IMG/VR virus record: IMGVR_UViG_3300032069_000858 | Coordinates: 1 to 20,320 of that record | Strand: one strand, 5' to 3' | DNA from: a virus | Length of the DNA stretch: 20,320 bases | In this document: piece after piece, positions 2,913 through 19,269 of the stretch | How the letters are laid out: the number at the start of each line of letters is the position of its first letter | How positions within the stretch are numbered: the first letter of the stretch is position 1 | Position numbers and translations under genes: made by a program | The notes under the pieces: model-generated | Database searches by the model: none | Seen by the model: the letters and a program-made list of their open reading frames with translations, nothing else | Told to the model about the DNA's origin: nothing

Positions 2913-2950
2913 AATGGGTTCCTTTCCGGGCGACCGCCGTTCGCCCCGAC

Positions 2951-2971
2951 GGGCGGGTTTGAAACCCGCCC
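2951..2971. repeat. GGGCGGGTTT palindrome, copy 1
   Basis: Ten-base arms GGGCGGGTTT and AAACCCGCCC flank a single G. It sits between the tail-hub gene stop and the start of the 142-residue ORF. The same palindrome occurs at 7242-7262 and, inverted, inside the terminase at 18284-18304. A second GC-rich inverted pair (CGGGCGA and TCGCCCC, about 2928-2946) lies beside it. Confidence 0.85.
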
Positions 2972-2977
2972 CCATAG

Positions 2978-4567
2978 TTATTCTGACGACACCCGTATCC
3001 ATTTTTGCCGGATAGTTGTCGGCTTAAAAATTCTCTCGATCAAGATGCACTTTTCCTCTACCCAGCCGGCGCCGTCCAGGCTAGGGCCTTCCTCCAAGGT
3101 AAGCAGGCCGGCATCGCCTTCGAGGACATCGAAACCGGTGAACCAAGGCACATCGAATTCGGCCACGTCATGTCGCATGGCCCGAAGGTCGAGAAAACGG
3201 TTGGTCAGGCCCGCGGCAATGGCCTCGTTTTGCACGTCGGTCAAAAGCAACTCGAACCGGGGTTGCTCGCCATACTGGTAAAAGGATTGTTTGCACCTGG
3301 GGTCATTGTTTCGGTTTTTGGTCAACAGCTTTTCCCAGGCTTTGGTCGTGGGGTTTAGGGCATACTTGACCACCAGATTGTTGACGACAAAATCCTCTGG
3401 AGTTTTGGTAAACGTGACTGGGTTCATGTCGTTGCCGATCACGTCCTGATCTCTGATGATCCGGCCAATGGTTGGAGCATCCGGGTCGAAAGTCCATACA
3501 CCCATAAGCCCGCCGGGCCGGAGCACCCGGGCCGCCAGGCATTGACTCAGAATCCGATCCACCACGTCCATGCCGCGCGCTGAGTCATTAACTAAGACCG
3601 AGAAGGCAACGCCGGTTAAAAGGGCTTTTGCCGTCTTGAGGCTGGCCGCGTCCACATCCTCGGGATAGAGTTGCGAAAACTTCTCCATGATAAAACGCAC
3701 AATATCAGCCGGGTGCTGAATAAGACCGGCCGCAGTCCCGGTGTACTCGCCGGAGCCGTCCCGGATGCCTTGAACGCTGAAGCGCAGCGGCTCAAGCGCG
3801 GCCTGATCCGAGGCGAACTCGAAATACTGACAAGGATTGCCTAGGTGATCGATAGCCTCGTAATAGGTGTAGTTAACTTTATCGATGGTTGCGCCGTCCT
3901 TATCCAGCAGCAGCTCGGTTCCGGCCTCAAACTGGGCCTCCCGGCTGACGGTCAAGCCATAGGTTGCCAGATAGAACCAATGCCCGCCTTCGTTCACGGC
4001 CACGCAGGGCGCGGGCAGGACCGCCGGCCAATCGCCGAACACGATCTGGCCGGGCTGGCCGAGTGGGGAGTCTCCAGAGCCGCCGGCGGTGCGAGCATAG
4101 GGCCAGGTGGTTTGATCGATCTGCTGCGGCGGCAAAGTATCCAGCTTGTACCGGGCCAGGTCCACCAAATCGAAGGCATAGGTGGTCTTGTTGTGGTGCT
4201 GCTTTTGGAAAACGCCCCGGAAAAGAATGCCGGCGGTCTCGATGTCTTCCCAGGTCAGGCCGTCGCACCAGACCCGGATCGTGCCGATCCCGCCGTCCAT
4301 GCCAATGGTTTTTTCCAGGTCTTGAAACCGGTCCCGGTTGGCGAGTTCGATCGAGATGGATACCGCGCCATAGCGAAAGGTGCGGAGGTCGAAACTGGCC
4401 CCGACCTCGAAGGTTTTTGTAATGGCCGCCTCATACCGCCGGTCGTCCCCGGATGAAGGCACGGCCAGGTCCCCATGCGCCAGGCGCAGAGATAGGCCGG
4501 TGAATTCCAGGTCGAGCAGAAAATGAACCCGGCGGGCGGTTTTAAGGGCGGCGGAAATTATGGACAT
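2978..4567 (-). CDS. Tail-tip/baseplate hub-like protein
   Basis: A 529-residue protein. It starts 'MSIISAALKTARRVHFLLDLEF', continues with beta-rich segments ('DLAVPSSGDDRRYEAAI', 'TFRYGAVSISIEL', 'GTIRVWCDGLTWEDIE', 'LFRGVF'), and has a central 'HPADIVRFIMEKFSQL' helix. The later 'ILSQCLAARVLRPGGLMGVWTF' and 'NNLVVKYALNPTTKAWEK' segments resemble the part of phage tail hub proteins that is followed by a long beta domain. The role as a structural element of the tail tip, downstream of tape measure and distal tail proteins, is inferred from this pattern and gene order. An AGGA Shine-Dalgarno lies just upstream of the ATG at 4567. I could not assign a Pfam family with certainty. The C-terminal end (KPTTIRQKWIRVSSE) stops just before a palindromic repeat. 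Confidence 0.65.
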   Translation of the reverse strand: MSIISAALKTARRVHFLLDLEFTGLSLRLAHGDLAVPSSGDDRRYEAAITKTFEVGASFDLRTFRYGAVSISIELANRDRFQDLEKTIGMDGGIGTIRVWCDGLTWEDIETAGILFRGVFQKQHHNKTTYAFDLVDLARYKLDTLPPQQIDQTTWPYARTAGGSGDSPLGQPGQIVFGDWPAVLPAPCVAVNEGGHWFYLATYGLTVSREAQFEAGTELLLDKDGATIDKVNYTYYEAIDHLGNPCQYFEFASDQAALEPLRFSVQGIRDGSGEYTGTAAGLIQHPADIVRFIMEKFSQLYPEDVDAASLKTAKALLTGVAFSVLVNDSARGMDVVDRILSQCLAARVLRPGGLMGVWTFDPDAPTIGRIIRDQDVIGNDMNPVTFTKTPEDFVVNNLVVKYALNPTTKAWEKLLTKNRNNDPRCKQSFYQYGEQPRFELLLTDVQNEAIAAGLTNRFLDLRAMRHDVAEFDVPWFTGFDVLEGDAGLLTLEEGPSLDGAGWVEEKCILIERIFKPTTIRQKWIRVSSE

Positions 4568-4591
4568 GGTTTCCTATTCCATAGGGGCACG

Positions 4592-4634
4592 TTGTCCTTC
4601 GACTGTGCTCGGGACCGCGAGCCTGCCGAACGGC
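4592..4634. repeat. GTCCTTCG...CCGAACGG palindromic repeat, diverged copy
   Basis: The sequence TTGTCCTTCGACTGTGCTC, GGGACCGCGAG, CCTGCCGAACGG is a diverged form of the repeat at 13255-13296 (TCCTTCGGCTCCGCTCAGG, ACCGTGAGCC, TGTCGAACGG). This family is widespread between genes in some bacterial chromosomes. Here it lies in the 173-bp gap between the propeller protein and the hub-like gene, directly beside the next repeat. Confidence 0.7.
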
Positions 4635-4642
4635 GCGTACCC

Positions 4643-4728
4643 TTGTGGCATGGGCTTCCAGCCCATGAATTGCCTTGTGGCATGGGCTTCCAGCCCATGA
4701 AAATCACGGGCAGGATGCCCGTGCCACG
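4643..4728. repeat. Three GTGGCATGGG/GTGGCACGGG palindromes in a row
   Basis: Two nearly identical 32-bp-spaced copies of TTGTGGCATGGGCTTCCAGC followed by CCATGAA (4643-4669 and 4675-4701) are followed by ACGGGCAGGATGCCCGT and GCCAC (4706-4727). The stems are CATGGGCT/AGCCCATG and ACGGGC/GCCCGT. Together with the preceding repeat these fill the whole gap; no gene is seen in it. Confidence 0.85.
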
Positions 4729-4740
4729 TCACATACCACA

Positions 4741-7206
4741 TCACAAAACTTCTTCCAACGTCAATACCACGTCGTACCGATCCAGGAACTTATGCGTCTG
4801 TTTGGCATCGGATGTGGCCTTGACCAAATACACATCAAGCAGGTCTGCGCTATCCGGGATGAGCACCACATTCTGGCCGCGCAAATAATCTACCATGGCT
4901 ATAAGTTGCCGCCGGCCTAGATCCGTATTCGGGAAAGTCAGCTCGAAAACATTTTTGGGCTCGGCCCCTTGTATTGGAATCATGCCGCCAGCCGGGGTGC
5001 GGAGCATCTCGACGTTCGCCTGTCGGGTCAATCCGAACCCAGCCGCGATACCGCGATCCAGGCTTACCATGCGCCCGAGGGCCGCATAACCGACCTGGTA
5101 ATAATTCTCGGCGGTCTGCTGAGTCTCGATGAGGATGCGCACATATCGCTTAACGTTCGCCGTAAAGGCGACGGCGGCCTTGGTGCCGAAAATGGCGAAG
5201 GTATCGTTGACCGAGACGCTTATCGCGGCCGTGGTATCCAAGACGATCCATGAAGAAAAATTGTCCAGAATCTTCCAGGTGACGCCGCTGCTCGTTCCCG
5301 AGGTCATGCGCACATATTGGCCCCGGAGCTCATGGTCGGCATACCCGGCCAGCAGGGAGGTGTCTTGAATAAAATTTCCGCTCGCGGCATCGATTGCGCC
5401 GGTAGCCAGGTCGAAACTGACGGATTGGTTGAGGGACGGCGAACCCCAGGAATCGGTGTCGTTCATCTGAATGGACAAAGTCCGCACATTCGCGCCGAAA
5501 AAGGCGGCCCCATCCGCGTAAAATTTATTATTGGCCCCGAGGTCCATCACCACGGCGTAGTCGGCATTGTCCGCCGCGGTCCGCCACGGCCGGCTTGGCG
5601 AATCGGCGATCAGGTTTTCCATACAGAAGTCGTATTCCGGCTCGAACGTCCAGGCGTCCCCAATCATGCCGCCGTAGCCATACCAGACCAGTTCGGCCCC
5701 GCAAACGAGGGCTTGCGGTATGGCCTCGATGGCAACTGGGCTGTCATTCCCAGAATAAGCCTCCCACATCCCGCGACGTACCAAATAAACATCGCTATTT
5801 GTATTATCCAAATATGCACATGACAACTGATGCCCATCAGCCATACAAACTGTTGGAGTTTGCAGATCCGTTCCCCATACAGAGGCGACTGTAAAAGCGT
5901 CATGCCATGTGGTTCCATTATTATCACTGTAGGTGGCGGTAATGGCCTTCGCATTCTCCGGGGCGATCAATGTACGATCACAAAACACAAAAATCCTACC
6001 ATCAATATCCACAATGGTAGTTGGAGAATGTCGCTCTACATTAAAGCTCGCATAGGCGAGAACAGTGATTGAATTGCCCCAGGTATAACCACCGTCCTCT
6101 GAAATTTTGCAGCGGATTTCATAATGCCCGCTGTTTGAAAACGAATAAACTACAATTAAATTGCCATTCTCGGTTTGAGCGCAGGCCGGTATGCTACTGG
6201 CTCCAACATTTTGAGTAATATCATTGATATTGGCCCAAGAGAAACCGCTATCTGAACTGAGTGCACCATTCAAATGCGGTCCAGTATCTATATAGGCGGC
6301 GAATAGAACGCCGCTACTCAGTTCGATCACGCCATAAAGCGACTGTGCCGTGGGTATGCCAGTCGTTTCCGGCACCATAACTTGGGCCTCGGCTGACCAA
6401 GTTAGGCCATGATCATCCGAGTAAGACATGTAAGTATCCATAAAAATCAGGATGCGGCTTGAGGCCAAAACCAAGAGCCGTTGCGGAGAACGATTGCTAT
6501 TCGAAATCTTGATGGCCGCCGACCAGGTAATACCATTATTTATAGATCGCTTGCAGTAAACTTTAGAATCTGCGGCTTCATTATAGGCTACAATCAAAGT
6601 CCCGTTTGCAGCCTGGCAGAGGGAGATACGTTTGGCCGTATTATTATGGACAAGCGTGCTCCCGGGCCAAATACCATCTTGGGGCCTATTTCGACCGAGC
6701 CATGTCGCACCGTCATGATTCCATTTGAATGTAGCATTGCCCGCGTCGCCAGCGGCTACTATCTCGACCTCGATGGCCCGCGTGGCATATGGAATGGTCA
6801 AGGTGAAAGTCACGCCGCTCACGATTTGAGCAGTAAAGGGAACTGATATGGTGATCGTGCCGGTAACCTGGGCAAAATCGGAGATTGTTCGGCTCTGGCC
6901 GCTCGCCGCGCCCGAGGTGATGGTGATGGTCCCGCCGATGAAATAATCATTACCATATATCACTAGGGCTGAGTCGATGAGCGTGGTTTTGTCCACGGCG
7001 CCGGTGGCCGAGGTGGTGCCGGAGTATGAAAAATCCGAGGCATCGCCCTGGGCCAGGAGCCGGAATTTCCCGGTGTTGGCCGAGGCTGGGGCGGGTTGCC
7101 CCCAGAAGCCCGAGGCCTGCGAGCCCTGGGGTGAGCCCGTCGAATCCTCCGCGCTCAGGAAATGCGCGTCGGTCAGGATGTTTTCGGCAAGAAGTTGGGT
7201 GGTCAT
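4741..7206 (-). CDS. Tail-tip protein with inserted sialidase-like Asp-box propeller
   Basis: An 821-residue chimera. Residues about 185-480 carry five Asp boxes: SINNGITW (221-228), SDDHGLTW (263-270), SSDSGFSW (317-324), SEDGGYTW (369-376) and SDNNGTTW (427-434), the hallmark of BNR/sialidase beta-propellers. An RIS-L segment at 193-196 sits where sialidases carry RIP, but I cannot confirm the full catalytic set, so glycan binding is at least as likely as cleavage. The propeller is flanked by two similar beta modules (about 68-137 and 602-674, both TGA(V/I)D...TSGxxSG...I.D.F). The C-terminal 150 residues ('KRYVRILIETQQTAENYYQVGYAALGRMV', split over 687-713, and 'RGQNVVLIPDSADLL') look like a phage tail-tip core. 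The DNA for the propeller is AT-rich against GC-rich flanks. The RBS is weak (GGAA). Likely a receptor-contacting distal tail protein. Confidence 0.75.
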   Translation of the reverse strand: MTTQLLAENILTDAHFLSAEDSTGSPQGSQASGFWGQPAPASANTGKFRLLAQGDASDFSYSGTTSATGAVDKTTLIDSALVIYGNDYFIGGTITITSGAASGQSRTISDFAQVTGTITISVPFTAQIVSGVTFTLTIPYATRAIEVEIVAAGDAGNATFKWNHDGATWLGRNRPQDGIWPGSTLVHNNTAKRISLCQAANGTLIVAYNEAADSKVYCKRSINNGITWSAAIKISNSNRSPQRLLVLASSRILIFMDTYMSYSDDHGLTWSAEAQVMVPETTGIPTAQSLYGVIELSSGVLFAAYIDTGPHLNGALSSDSGFSWANINDITQNVGASSIPACAQTENGNLIVVYSFSNSGHYEIRCKISEDGGYTWGNSITVLAYASFNVERHSPTTIVDIDGRIFVFCDRTLIAPENAKAITATYSDNNGTTWHDAFTVASVWGTDLQTPTVCMADGHQLSCAYLDNTNSDVYLVRRGMWEAYSGNDSPVAIEAIPQALVCGAELVWYGYGGMIGDAWTFEPEYDFCMENLIADSPSRPWRTAADNADYAVVMDLGANNKFYADGAAFFGANVRTLSIQMNDTDSWGSPSLNQSVSFDLATGAIDAASGNFIQDTSLLAGYADHELRGQYVRMTSGTSSGVTWKILDNFSSWIVLDTTAAISVSVNDTFAIFGTKAAVAFTANVKRYVRILIETQQTAENYYQVGYAALGRMVSLDRGIAAGFGLTRQANVEMLRTPAGGMIPIQGAEPKNVFELTFPNTDLGRRQLIAMVDYLRGQNVVLIPDSADLLDVYLVKATSDAKQTHKFLDRYDVVLTLEEVL

Positions 7207-7218
7207 TTTTTATTCCAT

Positions 7219-7266
7219 AGGGGCAGGTCTCAGACCTGTCCGGGCGGGTTTGAAACCCGCCCCTAC
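7219..7266. repeat. Paired palindromes CAGGTCT/AGACCTG and GGGCGGGTTT/AAACCCGCCC
   Basis: The first stem is CAGGTCT (7224-7230) with AGACCTG (7232-7238), and the second is GGGCGGGTTT (7242-7251) with AAACCCGCCC (7253-7262). The right-hand edge GTAGGGG supplies the TAG stop codon of the tape measure gene (7263-7265). Bases 7238-7266 are the exact reverse complement of 18280-18308 inside the terminase gene. Confidence 0.9.
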
Positions 7267-9107
7267 ATTTTCATTCCGGCCAAGGCCACATCCTTGGTGG
7301 CCACCTCGGCGCCGATGCGTTTATCGGTGACCTCATATTGCACGTTGGCGAACCAATTCTTGACGTCATTCGTGGTTATGACGCCTTCATTGTGCAGATG
7401 AAAATGGTTGTGCACTTCGCCGCCGGTATTGGATGAAACCGCCTGCTCGAGCCGGCCGAGCCGCGTAGCGATATCCCGCCGGTCCCGAGGCGTATAAATT
7501 TCCTCGCCCGCATGGACCCAGGCCGGGCCGCTGGCAAAAACTTCGCCGCCGAACTGGAAGCCGGGTAGTAAGCCGCCCTCGGCCGGCGAAGCTAAATAAG
7601 CGCTTGGGTTGGCGTTGATCTGGGTCATGATATCGGCCATGTCGCCCATGTTATGGGAAGTTTGCACCGCCGCCATTTCGGCATATCCCGGAGGAGTCGA
7701 TCTGCCGCCGATCCCGAGCTGCCCAAGCGCCCAAGAGATGCCTCTGCCGGCCGCGATGCCCGCGCCCAGGTTGGCGGCGCCTAATGCGACCAAACTCCCG
7801 CCGGCGATGGAGAGGATGCTGTTCACTAACGCCCCGGATGGAGTCAAAGAGGCCGCGGTCTCGGCCGTATTGGCCGCCACATGGCCCATGTTCGCGGCAA
7901 TGCTATTTAGGGCGTCGGTCTGGCTAAATTCGGCGCCGACCAGCCCGACCATGAGGGCCACCAGGTCTTGATTCTGCGCCGAGGTCAGGATGCGCTCGCC
8001 TTGGTGCACCAAGGCCGGCATGGTCTGAGGCACATAGGCCGTGCCTTCCTGGAACGGCCACAGGCTCTTGAGCAGATCGCCTGCGCCAGAAACCACATCC
8101 CCGACCAGGCTGCCCGCGCCCTGGATAAAACCGCCCAGACCCAGGAGGTTCGCGGCGCCTCCGAGCAGGCTTCCAGCCCCAGAGACCGCCGCGCCGGCCA
8201 AGCCCCAGTTCCGGCCGCCGCCCTCAATATCGTAGCCGGCGAGAAGCTGCGCCGTCTGCCGGCCAAGGGAATTGGCGATGCTACGCTGCATGTACGCCAG
8301 GATCATATCCGTGTAGTCGGAAAGGTCCTTCAGTCCGCCGCGGAAGGCATCAAAAAAGATTTCGGAAAAGGCGTCTTGCATACCCCAGGCCGTGGTCCGG
8401 CTGAGGTCCACCAGATCGGAAAACTTTTCCTGCTGGTAGGCATGCAGAGCCTTGGCCTGCGCCTGCTGGGCCTCTGCGCTGGCCCCAGACTCGGCCGTCA
8501 TGGCCGCATAGGCTTCGGCGGCCGTTTCTTCGGCCGCGTCGGCCCAAGAGCGCCAGGCATCATCTATTTTTTCAGGAGGCGTCAGTGTTTCTGGGGGGAC
8601 CTGGATTGCCCAGGGGAGGGAAAGGTCAGGCGCGGGGCCACGAAGCGGCGTCTGGTCAGCCGGCGCGGTCGGGGTGGGGCGAGGGATCGGCTCGAACAAG
8701 GATCCTGGCGGTATGGCCAAAGACGGGGCTTCCTGAAGGGTCTGCGGCCAAAGCCAAGCCGTCCGGACCAGGTCGTCAGGGATGGGCCGGATAAGATCCT
8801 CACCGGACCGGCCGTCAAAAAAGGTCGGCGGCAAAAGTGCCGGCCAGGCGGACTCGTCCGGCTCACGCTCCAGGAACCGTGCCTGGTCCAGGCCGCCGTC
8901 CAGGTCGGCGAGCGCGCTCCCAAGCGAGGTCGCATGTCGGGTCAGGTCGGATATTCCGACCTCGTGGGCCTCCAGGCGTTGGCCGAGGCGGTCGAAGGCG
9001 CGCTCACCCTGGCGGGTCGCGTCCTCCACGGCCCGGCCGAACTGCTGCACCGTGGCCGTGCCCTTGTCGTCAACGATCAGCTTGATTTGCAAACGTATGT
9101 CAGGCAT
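7263..9107 (-). CDS. Tail tape measure protein, short form
   Basis: A 614-residue protein. Residues 244-290 (WGMQDAFSEIFFDAF..., SDYTDMILAYMQRSIANSLG) match the C-terminal segment of lambda gpH-type tape measures. Glycine/alanine-rich hydrophobic stretches (about 300-345 and 425-470) fit the membrane-active region, and two 'GPA-VHAGE-I' motifs occur (365-374 PALVHQGERI and 528-538 PAWVHAGEEIY). The His-rich NHFHLHN at 567-573 is typical of these C-termini. The N-terminal 70 residues are helical, but 80-180 is proline-rich (for example IPRPTPTAPA), which is odd for a protein that should be a long helix. It follows the tail chaperone pair, as in most siphophages. By the usual length rule a 614-residue ruler implies a tail of roughly 90 nm. 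The RBS is weak, and the stop is formed by a repeat. Confidence 0.85.
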   Translation of the reverse strand: MPDIRLQIKLIVDDKGTATVQQFGRAVEDATRQGERAFDRLGQRLEAHEVGISDLTRHATSLGSALADLDGGLDQARFLEREPDESAWPALLPPTFFDGRSGEDLIRPIPDDLVRTAWLWPQTLQEAPSLAIPPGSLFEPIPRPTPTAPADQTPLRGPAPDLSLPWAIQVPPETLTPPEKIDDAWRSWADAAEETAAEAYAAMTAESGASAEAQQAQAKALHAYQQEKFSDLVDLSRTTAWGMQDAFSEIFFDAFRGGLKDLSDYTDMILAYMQRSIANSLGRQTAQLLAGYDIEGGGRNWGLAGAAVSGAGSLLGGAANLLGLGGFIQGAGSLVGDVVSGAGDLLKSLWPFQEGTAYVPQTMPALVHQGERILTSAQNQDLVALMVGLVGAEFSQTDALNSIAANMGHVAANTAETAASLTPSGALVNSILSIAGGSLVALGAANLGAGIAAGRGISWALGQLGIGGRSTPPGYAEMAAVQTSHNMGDMADIMTQINANPSAYLASPAEGGLLPGFQFGGEVFASGPAWVHAGEEIYTPRDRRDIATRLGRLEQAVSSNTGGEVHNHFHLHNEGVITTNDVKNWFANVQYEVTDKRIGAEVATKDVALAGMKM

Positions 9108-9565: not shown

Positions 9566-9903
9566 TAGTTTTTTTCGAGCGCGTCCTTGGCCTGCCGAAA
9601 CTCCCGATCCTTGGCCAGGACAAAGGCCGCCAGACCTCCGAGGTTGAAGTCGTAGATTTTCTGTTTGACTTCATCCGTGCACGGCAACGGCTTTTCGTCC
9701 GCGCCGACCACGCCCTCCCAAGCCACCAGGCAATGCTTGAAAAGGCGGCATTGCTCTGCCCCGGAGATTCGCAGCCCGCCGTCCTGAATCACGGTCACGG
9801 CCTGGCTGAGCGGGTAGGGCCGGATTTTCAGGCGCGCCCCGCTTTCCCCGAATTCGTACCATCGGGCGTCGTAGGACAGATCGGTGAAATCGATGGTCAG
9901 CAT
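9565..9903 (-). CDS. Tail assembly chaperone, upstream part
   Basis: A 112-residue protein beginning MLTIDFTDLSYDARWYEFG, with a strong GGAGGG Shine-Dalgarno four bases before the ATG at 9903. The layout is familiar from small tail chaperones: an N-terminal beta part with 'GARLKIRPYPLSQ', a central 'CLVAWEGVVGADEKPLPCTDE' with W57, and a helical C-terminus 'NLGGLAAFVLAKDREFRQAK' ending EKN. The EKN end matters, because the codons form the slippery heptamer. The protein is expected to coat the tape measure during tail assembly, together with the minor frameshifted form, and not to be in the finished virion. It follows the tail tube gene after a 99-bp repeat-filled gap. Confidence 0.75.
   Translation of the reverse strand: MLTIDFTDLSYDARWYEFGESGARLKIRPYPLSQAVTVIQDGGLRISGAEQCRLFKHCLVAWEGVVGADEKPLPCTDEVKQKIYDFNLGGLAAFVLAKDREFRQAKDALEKN
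9568..9574 (-). promoter_or_regulatory. Probable -1 programmed frameshift site A AAA AAC
   Basis: Codons of the upstream chaperone end GAA AAA AAC TAA, so the heptamer A AAA AAC is exactly in the zero-frame phase required for tandem slippage. The stop codon follows immediately. A -1 shift continues as CTA ATG GCC TGG into the downstream ORF. A self-complementary GCGCCGGCGC lies just downstream and could aid pausing. The position between tail tube and tape measure genes is exactly where such sites are conserved in siphophages. Confidence 0.8.
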
Positions 9904-9916
9904 TTTTCCCTCCGGG

Positions 9917-10000
9917 GAGTGCGTGAGTGCGAAAGTGCGCGAGTGCGGGGAGATAACCCGATGGTTTTTCGCACTTGCGCACTACGCACCTCGCACTACG
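9917..10000. repeat. GAGTGCGNGAGTGCG / CGCACTNNCGCACT inverted repeat
   Basis: The left arm (9917-9948) is built from GAGTGCG repeats, and the right arm (9970-10000) from CGCACT and GCGCAC repeats, so the two can pair over a long imperfect stem with an A/T-containing loop (9949-9969). Related fragments occur at 11455-11480 and 13387-13404. It fills the gap between the second tail tube gene and the chaperone gene. Confidence 0.75.
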
Positions 10001-10002
10001 TT

Positions 10003-10896
10003 TTACGCGTTAGAGGAAAACGATATTGGGCCGACGGTCTGGAAATTGACAGTCTCCTTGGCCACGGCGTTGATCGGCACGTCCGGGCTGAAACTGTCGA
10101 ACGTCACCCAAGCGGTGACGCGGTCGCCGGTCTGGTCCTGGTCCGGGTCATAGTTGAAAAGCTGGAGCAAGTAGTAAGCGTTGCCGCCGCCAGCCTCGGC
10201 CACCAGGGCGTCCAGGAAACTCTTGCCGGCAATAAAGAAAGCCTCGGCCGAACCCTTGCCGCTGGCCATGCCCGGCAGGTACTGCTTCCACTGCTGGCCG
10301 CAGTAGTTCAATTCGGCCAGCTCGAGCGCCAGGTCCAGGCTCCAGCCGATCAGGTAGCCGATTTTTTCCAGGCTGGCCTCCGGGATAAAACCGTTGTTGC
10401 CGGTGACGGTGACCTGGGTGACGTTGCCGGAGAATGAGGCTTTGCCTTGGGAAAAATCCACGGTCCGCGCCTGGTAGCCGCCCGAATCGATCCAGGCCGG
10501 CGGCACGTTCGGGTTGAGCAGCCGCTTGGTCACGTCCGTGATCTGGGCGCCCACGCCGGCCTCGGTGCAAGCCTCGTCCTTGAGGTTGCCGATGACCCAC
10601 TGGTCGTTCAGCGTGTGCCCGGTCGTGGAGGCAAAGGTGATGGTCTGGCCGTCCGAGAGCGTCTGGGCTGCACCGGTGATGGACACCAGGGTCGTCCAGG
10701 ACCCGCCGTTCTTGCGCCATTTGAACTTGTCCGGCGTGCCCTCGGTGTCGATGACCACCTCGAAATAGGCCGAGGACGCGGCGCTGTATGCCGTGCCCCA
10801 ACTGGCGTCGTTCAGGCCCGAGCCCTTAGAGCCGTTCGGCCGGCGGCGATACAGGGCCGCATATTTACCGTGGGTCGGCGTGGTGGGGGATGCCAT
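10003..10896 (-). CDS. Second tail-tube-like protein with a large inserted domain
   Basis: A 297-residue protein. The N-terminus (PTTPTHGKYAALY) and residues 184-290 match the preceding 138-residue tube protein: GWSLDLALELAEL and WKQYLPGMAS here against GWSLDVELEMADI and WKETLPGMAS there. About 155 residues are inserted between these parts. The insert contains a beta module I have seen in phage structural proteins ('TPDKFKWRKNGGSW', 'ITGAAQTLSDGQTITFAST', 'TGHTLNDQWVIG', residues 54-103). It may be a decorated tail tube, a tail terminator-like ring or the distal tube protein. A strong GGAGGT Shine-Dalgarno precedes the ATG at 10896. The order (two tube paralogues, chaperones, tape measure) supports a tail role; which paralogue forms the tube proper is not decidable here. 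Confidence 0.7.
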   Translation of the reverse strand: MASPTTPTHGKYAALYRRRPNGSKGSGLNDASWGTAYSAASSAYFEVVIDTEGTPDKFKWRKNGGSWTTLVSITGAAQTLSDGQTITFASTTGHTLNDQWVIGNLKDEACTEAGVGAQITDVTKRLLNPNVPPAWIDSGGYQARTVDFSQGKASFSGNVTQVTVTGNNGFIPEASLEKIGYLIGWSLDLALELAELNYCGQQWKQYLPGMASGKGSAEAFFIAGKSFLDALVAEAGGGNAYYLLQLFNYDPDQDQTGDRVTAWVTFDSFSPDVPINAVAKETVNFQTVGPISFSSNA

Positions 10897-10907
10897 AATT
10901 TACCTCC

Positions 10908-10980
10908 GCGTGGCATGGGCTTCCAGCCCATGTGGCCGCCCCTGGCGGCCGAGAATCACGGCCAGGATGGCCGTGCCACA
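10908..10980. repeat. Compound palindromic repeat between the tail tube paralogues
   Basis: Three stems follow each other: CATGGGCT/AGCCCATG (about 10914-10932), GGCCGCC/GGCGGCC (10934-10950) and CACGGCC/GGCCGTG (10957-10975). The right edge CCACAATTA runs directly into the TAA stop of the upstream gene (10982-10984). The gap contains no gene. It could act as an mRNA-stabilising structure between the two tube genes. Confidence 0.85.
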
Positions 10981-10981
10981 A

Positions 10982-11398
10982 TTACGCCGCGCTGGTCAGG
11001 GTCAGGGCGCCGTCGCCGACGAAATTGCAGGTGAAGGTCACCTTGTCGCCCATGCGGCCGGCCACGGACAGGCTGGTGATGTAAAGGCTGCCGGAAAAGG
11101 CGTTCGTGTCGCCGTCCAGCAGGAACTTGACATCGGTCAGCTTGGTGCCGGGTGCGGCAGCCACCAGGTTGTCGAAAAAGGCCTTCTGCTCGGTGTTGCC
11201 GGCCACGAACAGGCCATTGAAGCTGCCGCGCCAGGAGGCCATGCCCGGCAGGGTCTCTTTCCAGTTCTGGCCCTGGCGGGAGATGTCGGCCATTTCCAGT
11301 TCGACATCCAGGGACCAGCCCTCGGAATAGTCCATGGCCACGTTATTTTTTTCGACGCGGCATTTCCGGCCGTGAAACGGCGTGGTGTTGTATGCCAT
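10982..11398 (-). CDS. Tail tube (major tail) protein
   Basis: A 138-residue protein with the size and layout of short major tail proteins: 'MAYNTTPFHGRKCRVEKNNVAM' then GWSLDVELEMADI (27-39), WKETLPGMAS (46-55), 'FNGLFVAG' and the closing 'GSLYITSLSVAGRMGDKVTFTCNFVGDGALTL' split over residues 103-133. This final pattern, a strand on bounded-length variation followed by 'tftc.f.G.G.l', is typical of tube proteins. It is paralogous to the next gene. It probably polymerises into hexameric rings of a non-contractile tail, since no sheath gene is present. AAGGAGG lies upstream of the ATG at 11398, giving strong expression as expected for a major virion protein. Confidence 0.75.
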   Translation of the reverse strand: MAYNTTPFHGRKCRVEKNNVAMDYSEGWSLDVELEMADISRQGQNWKETLPGMASWRGSFNGLFVAGNTEQKAFFDNLVAAAPGTKLTDVKFLLDGDTNAFSGSLYITSLSVAGRMGDKVTFTCNFVGDGALTLTSAA

Positions 11399-11674: not shown

Positions 11675-11685
11675 TTGGTTCTCCC

Positions 11686-11740
11686 TCGTGGCACGGGCTT
11701 CCAGCCCGTGATTTTTCACGGCCAGGATGGCCGTGCCACA
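11686..11740. repeat. GTGGCACGGG palindrome pair
   Basis: The stems are CACGGGCT/AGCCCGTG (11692-11710) and CACGGCC/GGCCGTG (11717-11735). The right edge GCCACAATTA leads directly into the TAA stop (11742-11744) of the upstream DUF1834 gene, the same junction seen at 10982. It fills the gap before the cysteine-rich gene. Confidence 0.85.
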
Positions 11741-11741
11741 A

Positions 11742-12212
11742 TTACGTTTCGGGCCGCAGCCACTCGACCTCGAACTCCCGGCTGAAAATGACCATGCGGG
11801 GCGAGGCGGCCAGAGGTTCGACCCGGACGGATCGGCAGATCAGCATCGTGGCGTCCAGGCCCAGGCCCGAATGATGCAGGCACGAAGCCACATCATCCAG
11901 CAAGTCATAAGCTCCGGCCTCGCCCTGAATAGAACGGCTGGCGCTCGAGGGCGATCTCAGGTTCCGAGCGCAGCACCAGACGGCGAAGATGCCGGTCTGG
12001 AAAAGCGCGTCCGACATCCCGCTGTCGTCGGTCTGCCCCATATAGGCCACCAGCAGGGCCGGGTACTGGAGCACCAGCTTTTCGAGCTCGTCGGCACGGT
12101 CCCAGGGCAGCCGGTCGAAGGTCCGCACGTAAGAGGCCAGGGTCGGGTCATGGGCCAGGGTTTCGATGATCGCATCCTCGATCTGCTCGATGGTGTAACC
12201 GGAAAGGGCCAT
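11742..12212 (-). CDS. DUF1834 / Mu gp37-like tail completion protein
   Basis: A 156-residue protein from the ATG at 12212 (MALSGYTIEQIEDAIIETL). A longer reading from 12266 would add 18 residues encoded by a palindromic repeat, so it is rejected. The N-terminal helix 'EQIEDAIIETLAHDP', then 'YVRTFDRLPWDRADELEKLVLQYPALLVAY', 'FQTGIFAVWCCARNLRSP' and the C-terminal strands 'MVIFSREFEVEWLRP' match the DUF1834 family of Mu-like phages (gp37 group). In the family this protein is placed with head-tail joining or tail completion; its exact role is not established as far as I know. A moderate AAGGCG site precedes the start. It sits in the usual place after the gp36- and gpG-like genes and before the tail tube. 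Confidence 0.75.
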   Translation of the reverse strand: MALSGYTIEQIEDAIIETLAHDPTLASYVRTFDRLPWDRADELEKLVLQYPALLVAYMGQTDDSGMSDALFQTGIFAVWCCARNLRSPSSASRSIQGEAGAYDLLDDVASCLHHSGLGLDATMLICRSVRVEPLAASPRMVIFSREFEVEWLRPET

Positions 12213-12239
12213 GCCTTTGTCGCCTTTTCTGTTGGGGTA

Positions 12240-12261
12240 GGGGCACGGCATGCCGTGCCCC
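12240..12261. repeat. Perfect GGGGCACGGCA palindrome
   Basis: Eleven-base arms GGGGCACGGCA and TGCCGTGCCCC meet without a loop. The element lies between the gpG-like stop and the DUF1834 start. Its edge again reads CAATTA at the TAA stop (12267-12269) of the upstream gene. Confidence 0.85.
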
Positions 12262-12266
12262 GACAA

Positions 12267-12804: not shown

Positions 12805-13230
12805 TCAGAAGCCTTTCATGCGGTCCCGCTTAAAGAGGCGGTCGCTCGCTTCCAGATCGGCCGCGTCCGGCGTGGTCTCGGCCGCGAGCGTTGGCGCGCC
12901 CAGGCGAATCCGGCCCGAGGCCACCTGTTCCAGGAAGCGGAGGGCGTCCTGGTAGCGGCCGCGCCGCGTCTCGGGCGCGGTGTCGTCCTTGCGGGAGAAC
13001 AGATGGTACAAGGCAAGGTCCACGCTGATCTGCCGGATTTTGGCCGGCACACTGGACAGCGGCACCTCGTACCGGCCCTGCAAATAGGCGTCGATGGTGG
13101 CGTCCGCGTCGGCGATGGCCCGGGCGAGCACGGTGGTATCGATTTCGCCCAGGCCCTCGTCGTCCGTGAGCTGGATGAGCGTTCGCTCGTCGAGCTGATG
13201 CAGGATGTCGGTTTGGGTCGAGTAGGCCAC
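12805..13230 (-). CDS. DUF1320 (Mu gp36-like) head-tail connector protein
   Basis: A 141-residue protein with a GTG start at 13230 and AGGAG seven bases upstream. 'MAYSTQTDILHQLDERTLIQLTDDEG' is the typical opening of DUF1320, followed by 'LARAIADADATIDAYLQGRYEVPL', 'VPAKIRQISVDLALYHLFSRK' and 'RRGRYQDALRFLEQVASGRIRLG'. These are the family's conserved positions (Y-L-x-G-R-Y, L-x-x-Y-x-L). The fold is an all-helical connector like HK97 gp6; the protein is thought to form the ring below the portal. It stands just after the major capsid region, as gp36 does in Mu. The gap before it holds repeats and a possible remnant gene. Confidence 0.9.
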   Translation of the reverse strand: MAYSTQTDILHQLDERTLIQLTDDEGLGEIDTTVLARAIADADATIDAYLQGRYEVPLSSVPAKIRQISVDLALYHLFSRKDDTAPETRRGRYQDALRFLEQVASGRIRLGAPTLAAETTPDAADLEASDRLFKRDRMKGF

Positions 13231-13254
13231 GGTTTTTCTCCTGGGTTCCGGCGT

Positions 13255-13296
13255 TCGTCCTTCGGCTCCGCTCAGGACCGTGAGCCTGTCGAACGG
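13255..13296. repeat. GTCCTTCGGCTCCGCTCAGG palindromic repeat
   Basis: The full copy reads CGTCCTTCGGCTCCGCTC, AGGACCGTGAGCCTGTC, GAACGG. On the other strand it starts CCGTTCGACAGGCTCACGG. A diverged copy is at 4592-4634. This repeat is, in my experience, common between genes in many bacterial chromosomes, so it is more likely of host than phage origin. Confidence 0.8.
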
Positions 13297-13308
13297 CCGG
13301 AACGCCGG

Positions 13309-13430
13309 CTATTTTTTGCTCTTGGGCTTTTCCGCCGGCGCGTCAGATTCGGGCTCGGGCGAGGTATGCCTCGCTTCTACAGATCGTACCCACGCACCAC
13401 GCACTATACGGGCGCGGTGCGCCCGGGCGA
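13309..13430 (-). pseudogene. Possible remnant of a small Mu gp35-like gene
   Basis: In the position where many Mu-like phages encode a short protein (gp35-like) between capsid and DUF1320 genes, only a reading frame without a credible start remains. From a GTG at 13404 it gives 31 codons ending 'SPEPESDAPAEKPKSKK' and TAG (13309-13311). A Lys/Pro/Ala-rich acidic C-terminus of this kind is common in the small proteins of that slot. No Shine-Dalgarno is seen, and the 5' part consists of palindromic repeat DNA. The frame could be the tail of a gene destroyed by repeat insertion, or chance. Confidence 0.3.
13359..13411. repeat. GCGAGG...CCTCGC hairpin plus GTGCGTGGTGCGTG motif
   Basis: GCGAGG (13359-13364) pairs with CCTCGC (13369-13374), followed by CTTCTACAGATCG, ACCCACGCACCACGCAC and TATACGGGCGC. 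The second part resembles the GTGCG motif of 9917-10000. The element overlaps the possible remnant reading frame. Confidence 0.55.
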
Positions 13431-14429
13431 TTAGGTGGTATGCGTGTCGTAGAACAGGAAGCCGAGGTCGTTGCCGGTCAGTTTCGCGTCCACGTCCATG
13501 AAGGCCTCGATGCGGTCCGAGTGGATGCTCTCCTCCCGCCATTTGCGCACGCCCACGGGCATGGCCTCGGAGGGCGCCTGGGCCAGAAGACCGTCCATGG
13601 AAGAGCGCACCCAGCGGAAGAGCACGCCGGCCGTGGGCTGCTTGGGTCCGACCAGGCTCGGGGAGTAGAGCAGCACGCCCGAGCCCTTGCCGGCGTTTGT
13701 TTCCCAGATTTTAACCGCGTTGAAATCGTCGCCGGCCGCCGTCTCCTCGGCGTCCGAATACACGGCCTGGCCGATGAGGACCCGGTCCAGGTCGAAGGCC
13801 GCGGCAATGAGATCGGCCGTGACGATGCCTTTCTGCGAGTACTTGATCTTCTCGATGAGATCGTTGTCCTGCCGGAGCTTTCCCAGAGTGGTGTGGTCGA
13901 TGACCAGGACGTTGGGCCGGTAGCCGGTGGCGGACAGCACGTAATCGATGGCCATCTCCATGTCCGCTACAAAGGTGCTCCCCGAGCCGGCCGTCCAGCC
14001 GCCCTCGGCGTCCTGGGTATGGCCCGCGGCCCAGTTGCCCGCGGTCAGAACGAGTGAGGCCACCAGGCGCTCCAGCCTGAGCAGGACCTTGTTCAGGCAG
14101 AACATGACCGCGTCCTGGTCGGGCCGGAGCGGCGCGTCGGCGTTGTCCCGGACCTCGTCCGGCACGTCGTCGTGGAAGGCCCATTCCCGGCAGGTGTAGG
14201 TATCGGAGCTGAGCGGATACCCGCCGCCCCGGCTCCGAGCCCCCGGCGCGCGCAGGGCCGCCTCGTCCCGGAACCAGGCTCCTTTCTGGAATTTGAAGTA
14301 ATAGTCGCTCTTCTTCGAGACGGAACGCCGGGAGAGCACCTCGGTGGCGATGTATTCCGGGTTCCGGTACTGCATGGCGAAGCTGGAGAGCGCCGTGTCG
14401 ATATGGACGTCGCTGGCCGTGGGCAGCAT
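13431..14429 (-). CDS. Major capsid protein (HK97-fold expected)
   Basis: A 332-residue protein in the slot of Mu gpT. The N-terminal 'DTALSSFAMQYRNPEYIATEVLSRRSV', 'KSDYYFKFQKGAWFRDEAALRAPGA', the 'GYRPNVLVIDHTTLGKLRQDNDLIEKIKYSQKGIVTADLIAAAFDLDRVLIG' stretch (169-220, with a CAP-like VLVIDHTTL) and the C-terminal 'IEAFMDVDAKLTGNDLGFLF' fit the major capsid family found in many siphophages and Mu-like phages. An AAGGAGGT Shine-Dalgarno precedes the ATG at 14429, suitable for the most abundant virion protein. It follows the decoration gene, as expected. Cleavage of an N-terminal delta domain is not obvious, which agrees with a separate scaffold from the protease gene. It assembles into the icosahedral head. 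Confidence 0.85.
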   Translation of the reverse strand: MLPTASDVHIDTALSSFAMQYRNPEYIATEVLSRRSVSKKSDYYFKFQKGAWFRDEAALRAPGARSRGGGYPLSSDTYTCREWAFHDDVPDEVRDNADAPLRPDQDAVMFCLNKVLLRLERLVASLVLTAGNWAAGHTQDAEGGWTAGSGSTFVADMEMAIDYVLSATGYRPNVLVIDHTTLGKLRQDNDLIEKIKYSQKGIVTADLIAAAFDLDRVLIGQAVYSDAEETAAGDDFNAVKIWETNAGKGSGVLLYSPSLVGPKQPTAGVLFRWVRSSMDGLLAQAPSEAMPVGVRKWREESIHSDRIEAFMDVDAKLTGNDLGFLFYDTHTT

Positions 14430-14453
14430 GTTAGAAACCTCCTTACGGAAGGG

Positions 14454-14554
14454 AATGATGAGTGATGAGTGATGAGTGATGAATGTTTTTGGAACGATAA
14501 ATTCTGGATTCTTTCAACTTTCCATTCATCATTCCGCATTCATCATTCATCATT
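14454..14554. repeat. Long ATGATGAGTG / CATTCATCATTC inverted repeat
   Basis: The left arm (14454-14485) is a run of GATGAGT units ending GATGAATG, and the right arm (14522-14554) is a run of CATTCATCATT units; they can pair over about 30 bases with a roughly 36-base AT-rich loop (GTTTTTGG...CAACTTTC). Its translations read as runs like HHSSF, a repeat type I know from many uncultured bacterial chromosomes. It fills most of the 151-bp gap between decoration and capsid genes; no gene is seen in it. A strong hairpin here could act as a transcript-processing or attenuation signal. Confidence 0.8.
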
Positions 14555-14580
14555 TCTTGAACCCCCAGTCTCCAGCCTTT

Positions 14581-15336
14581 TTAATGAACCACGGTCCCGA
14601 GGCTGTAGATGGTCACCGTGGTGGCCCCGGTGACCACGCACAAAAACCGTTTGCTGTTGTTCTGGGCGATGGTCATGGTGCCGGACAGGGTCACGCCCGC
14701 GCCGGCGGTGACGGTGATGGTCTCGGCGGCGTCGGCCGTGTTGCGAATGGCGAACTCGAAGGAGTTCCCCGCCCCGGCCTGCGCCATGGCCGCGACGATG
14801 TCCGCCGCGGCGGGCGTCACATCCGAGCGGGCTCCGCCGTTGGGATCGCGCAGGATCAGCCCACCCAGAAGCTGAGCCGCGGTGTAGATCACCACGTCGG
14901 CGGTGGAAAGGGTCGAGACCGTGGTGAAGCCGATCAGGGTTCCCAGGCTGGGCGGGAACGGACCGACGAGCTCGACCGTGGCCAAATCGTTTTCGGCGCC
15001 GGCCGCCTCGAGGACCACGGCCCGGGCCGCTCGCCAGGCCGCAAAGGCCTTTTCTCCCTTGCCGGCGTCGGCCGCGGACACGTATTCGGCCTTGAGAAAA
15101 TCGCCGATCGAGACCGCGCCGTTCACCGCCAGCTTGCTCAGGCCCAGCTTGCGCACCAGGGCCTCCTCGCCCTCGGCCGGCTTGTTCTGCAGGATGCCGT
15201 CCGGGATTTCGGCCGCCGAGTCTGGCCGGCGGACCTGGCCGGTGCCCGTGTCCAGGATCACGAAGGTGAACTGGTCGCCGGACAGGTCCTCGGCCGCTTC
15301 GTAGCTCACGTCCAGGACTTCGATGCCGTATGCCAT
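14581..15336 (-). CDS. Capsid decoration (cement) protein with extra C-terminal beta domain
   Basis: A 251-residue protein. Residues 1-130 (MAYGIEVLDVSYEAAEDLSG, 'FTFVILDTGTGQVRRPDSA', 'DGILQNKPAEGEEALVRKLGLSKL', 'SIGDFLKAEYVSAADAGKG') resemble DUF2190-like capsid cement proteins, which bind the outside of the head. Residues about 170-251 form a separate beta module with 'NSFEFAIRNTADAAETITVTAGAGVTL' and 'GTMTIAQNNSKRFLCVVT', a pattern that recurs as an add-on in virion proteins and may project from the capsid. An AGGAGG Shine-Dalgarno lies five bases before the ATG at 15336. The gene follows the protease/scaffold and precedes the capsid gene, the Mu-like order. The fusion makes it about twice the length of a plain cement protein. 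Confidence 0.75.
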   Translation of the reverse strand: MAYGIEVLDVSYEAAEDLSGDQFTFVILDTGTGQVRRPDSAAEIPDGILQNKPAEGEEALVRKLGLSKLAVNGAVSIGDFLKAEYVSAADAGKGEKAFAAWRAARAVVLEAAGAENDLATVELVGPFPPSLGTLIGFTTVSTLSTADVVIYTAAQLLGGLILRDPNGGARSDVTPAAADIVAAMAQAGAGNSFEFAIRNTADAAETITVTAGAGVTLSGTMTIAQNNSKRFLCVVTGATTVTIYSLGTVVH

Positions 15337-16424: not shown

Positions 16425-17737
16425 GTCAGATCGTCTCCTTTGTCCGGGTACGCCTGGGATTCGGCGCTCCGGCTGGGCTTTCCGGCGAGCCCGGTCTGGC
16501 CTGGCCGGGGCAGGGGCACGCCGAAGCGTTCGGACACGTGCTCGGCGCTGATGGGCTGTCCCAGGGCCGCCAGGTTGCGGTAAACCTCGCTCAGGGTTTT
16601 CAGGTCCTCGGGCTGCTCGAGGAAGAAGCGGAACCAGGGCACGGGCGTGTTCCAGCCGAAGTTGAAGCCCACCAGGGGCCGCAAGAGCTGCCGGCGCAGG
16701 GTGCGGCTGAGGGCCCAGGCGTCGGACCGGACCAGGTCCAGCCGTACGCTCTCGTGGGTCTTCGAGGCGGCGTACGAGCCGTGTTCGCCCACCTCGGCGG
16801 TCAGCGTGGCGCCGATCACGGCCTTGGACATCTCCCGGTTGCAGAAATCGGTCAGGCCGCGGTAAACGTCGGCCGAGCCTTGCTTCTGGGACTCGATGAA
16901 CTGGATTTCGGTGTTCTTCGAGATGATGCCGGCCGCGTCCGCGCCCAGGCTCTTGATGGCCTCGCTGAGCGCCTCCTTGTCGTCCGCCCCGGCCCCGGGC
17001 TCGTAACGGCCCAGCCTGAGCGGCATGCCGAAGACCTCGGCAAAAGCCGCCCAGTCCTTGACCGCGTAATTCTTGAACAGGTACATCCAGGCGCAGACGC
17101 GCAGCAGCCCGGCGCGCGCGTCGTGGCCGGAGCGGGCCTGGTGGCGGTGATAGACGACCTTGAAGGCCGGGATGTCCAGCGGCTTCCGATCGTCGCCGGA
17201 AAGGAGCCGGGGAACGAGGCTGTCCACGAAGGTGAGTCGCCGTGGCGGGATGCGCACGAGCCGCGCGGGAACGGCCCGGCCGGCCTCGATCTCCCAGACG
17301 ATCTCGCAGGCGGCAAAGCCCTGGCCGATGGCGTCCAGGAGGTCGAAGCGGGCCTCGTCGAAGTCCCCCAGGCCGCGCAGAACCTCGCGGCAGAAATTTG
17401 AGACGCGGTCGGAAATCCCGCGCCGGCGCGGGCCCGGGCTTTCCGGCGGCGCGTCGTAGGGCAGGATGTCGTAGTCCAGGCCGCCCACCGCGTTTTTTCG
17501 TTTTAGAAGCTCGCCGGAAAGGTGCGCGTCCTTTTCTTCCATCTCCTCGAAAAGCTCGGCCTGGCGCTGGACGTCGCCCTGGTCCGCCTCGCGGAAGATG
17601 GCGGCCAGCCGGGTGGGGGTCAGGCCGAACGAGGGGTAACTGCCGAAGCGGTCGGAGAGCCGAAGCACGGCCAGTTCCCGCGTCTCGGGCCGGGCCGGCG
17701 GTTCAATCCGCCGATTGAAGGAGTCCAATACGGGCAT
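16421..17737 (-). CDS. DUF935 portal protein (Mu gp29-like)
   Basis: 438 residues from the ATG at 17737, with AAGGAGGG ending five bases upstream; a TTG one codon earlier is possible but too near the Shine-Dalgarno. The DUF935 layout is clear: 'LTPTRLAAIFREADQGDVQRQAELFEEMEEKDAHLSGELLKRKNAVGGLDYDI' near the N-terminus, 'ARFDLLDAIGQGFAACEIVWE', 'YLFKNYAVKDWAAFAEVFGMPLRLGRYEPGA', 'GSYAASKTHESVRLDLVRSDAWALSRTLRRQLLRPLVGFNFG' and a final 'ISAEHVSERFGVPLP'. The portal forms the dodecameric ring at one vertex through which DNA enters and to which connector proteins attach. It overlaps the terminase stop by one base (TGATG) and the protease start by four, so the three are translationally coupled. 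No gpF-like minor head gene follows it. Confidence 0.95.
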   Translation of the reverse strand: MPVLDSFNRRIEPPARPETRELAVLRLSDRFGSYPSFGLTPTRLAAIFREADQGDVQRQAELFEEMEEKDAHLSGELLKRKNAVGGLDYDILPYDAPPESPGPRRRGISDRVSNFCREVLRGLGDFDEARFDLLDAIGQGFAACEIVWEIEAGRAVPARLVRIPPRRLTFVDSLVPRLLSGDDRKPLDIPAFKVVYHRHQARSGHDARAGLLRVCAWMYLFKNYAVKDWAAFAEVFGMPLRLGRYEPGAGADDKEALSEAIKSLGADAAGIISKNTEIQFIESQKQGSADVYRGLTDFCNREMSKAVIGATLTAEVGEHGSYAASKTHESVRLDLVRSDAWALSRTLRRQLLRPLVGFNFGWNTPVPWFRFFLEQPEDLKTLSEVYRNLAALGQPISAEHVSERFGVPLPRPGQTGLAGKPSRSAESQAYPDKGDDLT

Positions 17738-19269
17738 CAATACCCTCCTTTAGCCAGGCCGCGCCGCGCCTGGACCGTCTCGTAGCCGGGCGCCCCGCCC
17801 GCGCCGGACATGAGCAGGCTGACCGCGCCCTCGAGGGCGTCCGGCCCGTCGTCGTTCACGTTCTTGTCCAGGATGTAGACGAGCTGCTCCACCAGGCGGT
17901 CCTGGTCCGAGTGGCCTTTGACGAAGCGCAGCCGGCCGAACTCGACGAGCGGGCTGAGCGCGGCGATGATGCGGCCTTCCTTGTGCGCCGTGTGCCGGAC
18001 CTCGGTCAGCGGCAGGTAGCGTCCGCGCTCCCGGGCCGCCTGGGAAAAAACCTCGCGGAGAAAATCCTCCAGCATATTGATCTCCAGGCCCAGCGGCCCG
18101 CCAAAAGCGGCCTGGACCCGGTAGCAGGCCTCGATCATTTCGCTGACCGCGGCCCGCCGAATCCAGGCGTGGAGCACGTCGAATTTCATCACGTCAGGAT
18201 CGAGCCCGACAGTGATAATGGCTTTATAATCGTTGGCCATGCCCGATTTTGCGGATGGATCGAGAAAGGAGGCGACCCTGTAGGGGCGGGTTTCAAACCC
18301 GCCCGGACGAAGACCGGCAAGAGGATGTTCGATGAAAACGAACCAGGTTTCCTTGAACGGGCTCTCCTCGGCCCCGACCTGGTTGAGCATCTCGGCGCCG
18401 AAGGCCACGGTGCCCATCTGGCGGCGCTTTTTTTCCAGCCGCTCCGGCGGCCAAAGTTTTTCCCAAAGCGGCCGGCCATTATCGTCCAGGGCGCGGTAAA
18501 TCCGGGATTTATACAACGGGCCTTGCTCGTCCGCCTCGGCCATGAACCGGCTGAGGATGCTGTTCGGGGCGAAGAGGTTGCCCACCATGATAAAGCCGTA
18601 GCCCGCGGCCAGGGAGCCCATGACCGCCTGCCGCAGCCAATTCAACCCCTGCGTCACCAGCAGCGGGTTGCGGACATTGGCGTCGTTTTCGAAATCGTCC
18701 ACGATGGCCCGGTCCGGCCGATATTGTAAGTTTTTAAGACCCCTGACCCGCTCGCCCCGGCCCCGGGCCAGCACGCGCACGCCGCGGGCCGTGGTGAAGT
18801 CGTTTTGTTTCCAAGTGCGGCCCTCGAACGGGCCGAAGTCGTGCAGCAGCCTGGGGTTTTCCTCGAGCTCGAGCCGGATGGGCAGCGTAAAGCCGGCGGC
18901 CTGGTCGTTCGTATCCGAGATGATCAAAATGAAATGCCTGGCCTCATAACAAAGATCGTGGATAGGCAGGCCGAAGCTGAAAAAAGCGCTCTTGCCGTGC
19001 TCCCGCGGCGCGGCCACGAACACGGCCTGGTCCGAGACGTCGGCCAGGGCGGACCACTCCTGGTGGAAGGGGGCGAAGGGCGCGCTGAAGTAGTGAGGCA
19101 AATAGGTCTCGAAAAAGTAGAGCCGGTCCATCCGCGCGCGTTCTTTGCGCGCGGCCTGGATAAAAGGCGTGTCGGCCTCGAAGGGCGAGACGCTCGCCTG
19201 GATCCAGTCGCGGAGCTGGTCGGACCAGCGGTCGAAGCCGAGTTCGGTCAGGGTTGGGCGTTTACGCAT
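17737..19269 (-). CDS. terL: Terminase large subunit (Mu gp28-like)
   Basis: A 510-residue packaging motor. ATPase: Walker A APREHGKS at 87-94, and Walker B AIVDD at 188-192 followed by FEND. A coupling region is near 225-233 (GFIMVGNLF). Nuclease (RNase H-like): FLDPSAKSG at 335-343 with D337, then NDYKAI, GLEINM with E396, and DDGPDALEGA at 473-482. All key acidic residues seem present. An odd feature is residues 318-331 (AGLRPGGFETRPYR), which are encoded by a palindromic repeat (18280-18308) exactly between the ATPase and nuclease domains; the frame is kept. The gene overlaps the small subunit by eight bases and the portal by one. The enzyme cuts and translocates DNA into the prohead. It is probably functional if the linker tolerates the insertion. 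Confidence 0.95.
   Translation of the reverse strand: MRKRPTLTELGFDRWSDQLRDWIQASVSPFEADTPFIQAARKERARMDRLYFFETYLPHYFSAPFAPFHQEWSALADVSDQAVFVAAPREHGKSAFFSFGLPIHDLCYEARHFILIISDTNDQAAGFTLPIRLELEENPRLLHDFGPFEGRTWKQNDFTTARGVRVLARGRGERVRGLKNLQYRPDRAIVDDFENDANVRNPLLVTQGLNWLRQAVMGSLAAGYGFIMVGNLFAPNSILSRFMAEADEQGPLYKSRIYRALDDNGRPLWEKLWPPERLEKKRRQMGTVAFGAEMLNQVGAEESPFKETWFVFIEHPLAGLRPGGFETRPYRVASFLDPSAKSGMANDYKAIITVGLDPDVMKFDVLHAWIRRAAVSEMIEACYRVQAAFGGPLGLEINMLEDFLREVFSQAARERGRYLPLTEVRHTAHKEGRIIAALSPLVEFGRLRFVKGHSDQDRLVEQLVYILDKNVNDDGPDALEGAVSLLMSGAGGAPGYETVQARRGLAKGGY
18280..18308. repeat. GGGCGGGTTT palindrome inserted in the terminase gene
   Basis: Arms GGGCGGGTTT (18284-18293) and AAACCCGCCC (18295-18304) flank a single C. 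The 29 bases 18280-18308 are the exact reverse complement of 7238-7266. The element is read in frame as RPGGFETRPYR within the terminase. Confidence 0.9.

Follow-up and report, generated by a model that had tools for sequence, protein, structure and literature searches.

An in-frame insertion of a GTAG-tagged REP in the large terminase gene of a Mu-like phage

Palindromic repeats within protein-coding genes

Both GTAG- and CGTC-tagged REPs are known to occur in frame in bacterial genes, and linkers and loops of the encoded proteins are believed to tolerate them (Di Nocera et al., 2013, PMC3733652). In recB, two Xanthomonas species carry different REPs at roughly one position (PMC3733652). The GTAG of such elements often supplies a TAG stop codon, and the intragenic repeats RPE-4 and RPE-6 of Rickettsia conorii are of the CGTC type (PMC3733652). 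The REP-associated tyrosine transposases (RAYT, or TnpA_REP) recognise GTAG together with the hairpin in single-stranded DNA (PMC8266576). Inverted repeats within protein-coding genes are also described for the mitochondria of Nematomorpha (PMC6649704).

The window analysed here, which is the whole of a 20,320-base virus record with its late operon on the minus strand, carries such an element within a large terminase gene. Like the intragenic GTAG REPs of bacteria, it has GTAG at one end of the stem and is found in multiple, mostly intergenic copies, some of them in frame within genes, but those described in PMC3733652 are in bacterial genes, many of them for replication or repair, while those reported here are in a phage terminase and in phage portals; the words "phage" and "Desulf" do not occur in the text of that paper. 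The initial annotation drew a parallel to the Rickettsia palindromic elements, and this holds in effect, as these too are palindromic repeats in frame in unrelated protein genes. Compared by tag alone, however, the intragenic R. conorii repeats carry CGTC whereas the window element carries GTAG and lacks the CGTC tag, and bacterial genes with a GTAG REP in frame had already been published (PMC3733652). Its closer kin are the intragenic GTAG REPs rather than the Rickettsia elements. The Nematomorpha palindromes differ in being mitochondrial and up to 284 bp long, and they are not dispersed bacterial REPs. A literature search of open-licence papers gave no report of in-frame REP insertions in phage terminases or portals; in-frame REP insertion is a known phenomenon, and its setting in phage packaging proteins is new.

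The REP-coded linker of the terminase

Among the products of the window's late operon, whose genes are open and collinear, are a portal (PF06074, E 2.9e-104) and a protease (PF10123, E 6.1e-68) that are both Mu-like. The ORF that holds the REP matches the PHROG family "terminase large subunit" (Table 1) and was assigned no Pfam family in a Pfam search. Its AlphaFold2 model, based on 65 sequences, matches T4 gp17 (3cpe, E 9.5e-14) and HK97 (6z6d, E 5.3e-13) in Foldseek, and the protein has the ATPase domain, the RNase-H-like nuclease domain and the conserved acidic residues of a phage large terminase (phrog_38). It retains the residues that are invariant in the 65-sequence alignment, including R89, K93, D191, D192, D337, D473, D474 and D477.

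A repeat search of the window found the terminase copy to be 100% complementary over 30 nt to a second copy (7238-7267), and an exact match of this length within 20 kb is far beyond chance. The element, which reads TGTAGGGGCGGGTTTCAAACCCGCCCGGAC on the plus strand of the terminase copy, belongs to the class of GTAG-tagged REPs (GTAGGGGCGGGTTTNAAACCCGCCC), in which GTAG or GTGG stands at one end of a short palindromic stem, and GTAG followed by GGGCGGGTTTCAAACCCGCCC is present both in the terminase copy (18280, plus) and at 7266 (minus). A 29-bp palindromic repeat had been annotated as encoding residues 318-331; the repeat is real and exact, but the 29-bp element (18280-18308) encodes R321-Y330 (RPGGFETRPY), and 318-331 corresponds to the wider span 18277-18318. 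Its exact reverse complement had likewise been placed in an intergenic gap at 7238-7266. This copy, exact over 30 nt, does sit in the 7206-7263 gap, but the TAG of its GTAG end (7265-7263, minus) is the stop codon of the ORF at 7263-9107(-), of 614 aa. The terminase reading frame is unbroken and free of stops through the REP, as had been claimed. Two of the three frames on each strand of the window REP have no stop codon, and survival in frame therefore needs little luck.

Where REP hairpins can be recognised in the window, they lie in late-gene gaps or overlap gene ends, the exceptions being the terminase copy and those in a small ORF at 2484-3002. This ORF (minus strand, 172 aa) is made up mostly of repeats, namely three 99-nt tandem units (2557-2853) with one GTGG-type REP in each and the third copy of the GTAG REP family (Table 1), and it may be a genuine gene overrun by repeats or may be spurious. 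At least two further REP-like families, GTGGCATGGGCTTCCAGCCCATG / GTGGCACGGGCATCCTGCCCGTG and GTAGGGGCACGGCATGCCGTGCCCC, often form opposed pairs and are found at 4641-4734, 10906-10986, 11684-11746 and 12237-12262, in gaps of the late operon or at gene starts. Additional repeat-like sequence (e.g., CTCGGGACCGCGAGCCTGCCGAACGG, GATGAGTGATGAGTGATGA) is present in gaps at about 4590-4640, 9903-10003, 13230-13431 and 14429-14581, so that most of the larger intergenic gaps of the phage look repeat-filled.

Table 1. Positions in the window of the terminase gene, its linker and the copies of the REP family.
Feature	Position	Strand	Basis
Large terminase subunit, 510 aa, Mu-like phage, intact	17737..19269	-	phrog_38, E 4.5e-72; AlphaFold mean pLDDT 88.9; Foldseek
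Interdomain linker W309-D337, 29 aa vs median 22 in relatives	18259..18345	-	Linker comparison; pLDDT dip at 321-330
GTAG-tagged REP, in-frame insert in terminase	18279..18308	-	Repeat search; residue/frame mapping; linker comparison
Composite repeat between two late genes	7206..7267	.	Contains, at 7238-7267, an exact reverse complement of the terminase REP
Third copy of the terminase REP family	2950..2977	.	93% complementary to the terminase copy

Terminase relatives number 80 in IMG/VR overall and 15 in named genomes, mostly deltaproteobacterial MAGs, with more in further genomes; the 15 were found with an alignment query of genome contigs, the terminase as a single query having given none. 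Two of the IMG/VR relatives are close, the sister L001 (78% identical) and L002 (69% identical). Among 115 distinct relatives other than the window and L001, the linker from the conserved W309 to D337 is 20-27 aa long, and exactly 22 in 88 of them, compared with 45 in L001. An alignment with homologues had been proposed as the check on the insertion, and all 115 relatives (L001 set apart) have a shorter linker that lacks the residues encoded by the REP, the homologues being gapped at a site where the frame of the window gene is intact. Conservation of these residues in relatives devoid of the repeat would have spoken against an insertion, and the reverse was observed. The linker of L002, WFVFIEIVSPKAWRFASFLD, is empty of any palindrome and has 20 aa, to which the window linker adds 27 nt. 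Judged by these sequence comparisons, the terminase REP is an insertion. The remainder of the linker, HPLAGL in the window and HPQ in L001, aligns uncleanly to L002, and for this reason the exact boundaries of the insertion are not fixed.

In the terminase model, the mean pLDDT falls to 56 over the block 321-330. This block follows a short strand (311-313) and precedes the first strand of the nuclease (331-337), which ends in the invariant D337. Residues 319-336 of the L001 model (mean pLDDT 86.8) are below 50 at the same place. Both inserts are thus predicted, at low confidence, as loops that immediately precede the nuclease's first strand, in agreement with the earlier placement of the insert in a tolerant loop at the ATPase/nuclease boundary. 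The NG86 dN/dS between the window and L001 is 0.126/0.867 (about 0.145) to the left of the insert and 0.110/0.611 (about 0.18) to its right, and at the level of codon changes this shows the terminase gene to be under purifying selection, although such pairwise values are averages over the whole divergence and are no proof of function after insertion.

At the same linker site L001 holds a different palindrome, of 83 bp with 25-bp perfect arms (GGAAAAGGGGTCAGGAACCTTTTTC...), whose sequence is unrelated to the REP, so one loop holds different palindromes in the two sister phages. The L001 palindrome is likewise a dispersed element, since a diverged second copy lies between two genes of the L001 contig (L173 5364-5485). 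Its arm was found in none of 395 genomes of the phylum and a loosened arm in none of 29 genomes of the class; a shorter arm gave 19 IMG/VR stretches, with the palindrome visible only on L001's own contig. The two palindromes may represent two insertions or one replacement. The L001 contig also has GTAG hairpins of its own (L173 3004-3054, 4277-4327 and 4833-4891), several in opposed pairs and with stems unlike those of the window.

REPs in bacterial genomes and in other phage genes

In a sample of 395 genomes from the phylum to which G001 belongs, 23 have the GTAG form GTAGGGGCGGGTTTNAAACCCGCCC. The REP core has 76 copies in genome G020 and 45 in G408 and is present in 13 of the 22 genomes of the G020 family (the reversed pattern, used as a control, gave zero in every listed genome). 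Many dispersed copies per bacterial genome are a property seen in the genomes of this census. Terminase relatives are encoded in 20 of the same 22 genomes. There are seven Y1_Tnp/RAYT-like genes in G020, several with GTAG/GTGG hairpins nearby, and one RAYT-like transposase gene (L162 1159-1707, plus) has the terminase REP itself in its own frame (VGAGLKPAPT), after a HuH-like HIHG motif. A RAYT flanked on both sides by the exact terminase REP was not found, the RAYT-like genes adjoining other GTAG/GTGG hairpins and the L162 copy being internal, and the record of the window has no RAYT domain. Since GTAG plus a hairpin is the RAYT recognition unit (PMC8266576) and the genomes rich in the terminase REP have RAYT-like genes, mobilisation into the phage by a RAYT is plausible, but this we infer.

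Terminase-type REPs occur in 70 IMG/VR stretches, and the exact 30-nt pattern gave no match in IMG/VR. In the phage contigs, 61 of 120 REP cores lie inside mechanical ORFs of at least 150 aa, a count that takes such ORFs as called; 10 further ORFs have no Pfam family and may be spurious. One portal gene (L215 5287-7314, minus), with PF04860 at 54-380 and a head-morphogenesis match at 506-639, has an in-frame REP (RAGLKPAPAG) at about residue 466, where five relatives have a gap of about 16 aa, placing the insert between the portal domain and the head-morphogenesis-like domain. An SU10-type portal (PF23899; L218 6079-8349, plus) contains two REP-derived stretches in frame within about 38 aa, both absent from its relatives L251 (74% identical) and L252 (72% identical). 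The nuclease half of a Terminase_6C-type ORF (L242 4777-5916, plus) has REPs directly before the nuclease start FFLGIDIGRQHD and in a later loop; it was rejected as an intact example, the gene being split upstream with its ATPase half lying, in a different frame, behind a GGGATTAGGG-type repeat. A DUF6582 pair (L177/L192) was rejected as an empty-site control, as no clean gap faces the REP-coded stretch in the alignment. In a two-domain glycosyltransferase (L187 6484-8451, plus; same as L198) a terminase-type REP lies at about residue 318, between the GT9 and group-1 domains.

Origin and meaning of the insert

It is probable (roughly 0.8) that the large terminase gene of a Mu-like phage or prophage received a copy of one of the host's GTAG-tagged REPs. 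The donor would be the host chromosome and the mover a host RAYT, acting on single-stranded DNA, or recombination. The REP would have been kept because it is in frame, lacks stop codons and lies in the loop that joins the ATPase domain to the RNase-H-like nuclease domain, and the terminase would still package DNA with a near-neutral insert. The recurrence of a palindrome at one linker is best read as loop tolerance rather than sequence-targeted insertion.

If the terminase belonged to a decaying prophage remnant, any insertion would persist and its being in frame would be meaningless. REP-rich phage contigs do include broken genes, such as the L242 terminase split upstream of its REPs, but decay is unlikely for a gene that keeps its invariant residues and has a dN/dS of about 0.15-0.18 to L001, in a late operon whose genes are open and collinear. 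Given that REPs are repetitive and that the window comes from IMG/VR as a virus record, a chimera joined at a short repeat in metagenome assembly had to be considered. It was rejected as highly improbable, since the two flanks resemble L001 to an equal extent (79.0% nucleotide identity on the left of the insert, 81.9% on the right), and L002 likewise (69.9% and 68.0%); the reading frame is moreover continuous, and the same place is occupied by a palindrome in an independent contig. It is just as hard to credit that the linker merely varies in length and composition and that its match to the REP is incidental: two relatives (L013 and L037) do have natural 27-aa linkers without a REP insert, but ordinary indels yield neither exact 30-nt identity elsewhere in the genome nor the perfect 25-bp arms of L001.

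How the REP arrived is a separate matter. Recombination or gene conversion, for example with a palindrome already in the linker, in place of RAYT transposition would account for different palindromes at one site in two sister phages, as if one had replaced the other, and no cognate REPtron for the terminase REP was identified among the RAYT-like genes examined. Against this, the two palindromes have no evident common sequence for recombination and the site in the outgroup L002 has no palindrome, which leaves such an arrival a lesser possibility, though one of some weight. That the hairpin or its peptide was adopted for a function, such as a longer hinge or translational pausing between the domains, might be suggested by two different inserts at one domain junction; it is very unlikely, as the inserts have no peptide or nucleotide sequence in common, differ in length by 16 aa and are both predicted as loops with low confidence.

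Under the preferred reading, a host REP copied into the terminase and tolerated in its linker, an essential phage motor joins the bacterial genes in which palindromes are inserted in frame. This reading further suggests that the genomes of phages are subject to REP insertion within hosts that bear REPs. The locus provides a rare internal control at one linker, with a different palindrome in a sister and none in an outgroup, and its naturally occurring linker variants could serve to test the freedom of the terminase ATPase-nuclease hinge. It also calls for caution: when peptides such as GAGFKPA or GGFETRPY turn up in phage proteins from metagenomes, they may stem from the translation of repeats rather than being conserved motifs. 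Only tentatively can it be proposed that, in REP-rich hosts, REPs and other palindromes repeatedly enter and lengthen the interdomain linkers of phage packaging proteins (terminases and portals); if so, phage machines would regularly draw new linker peptide from the selfish repeats of their hosts.
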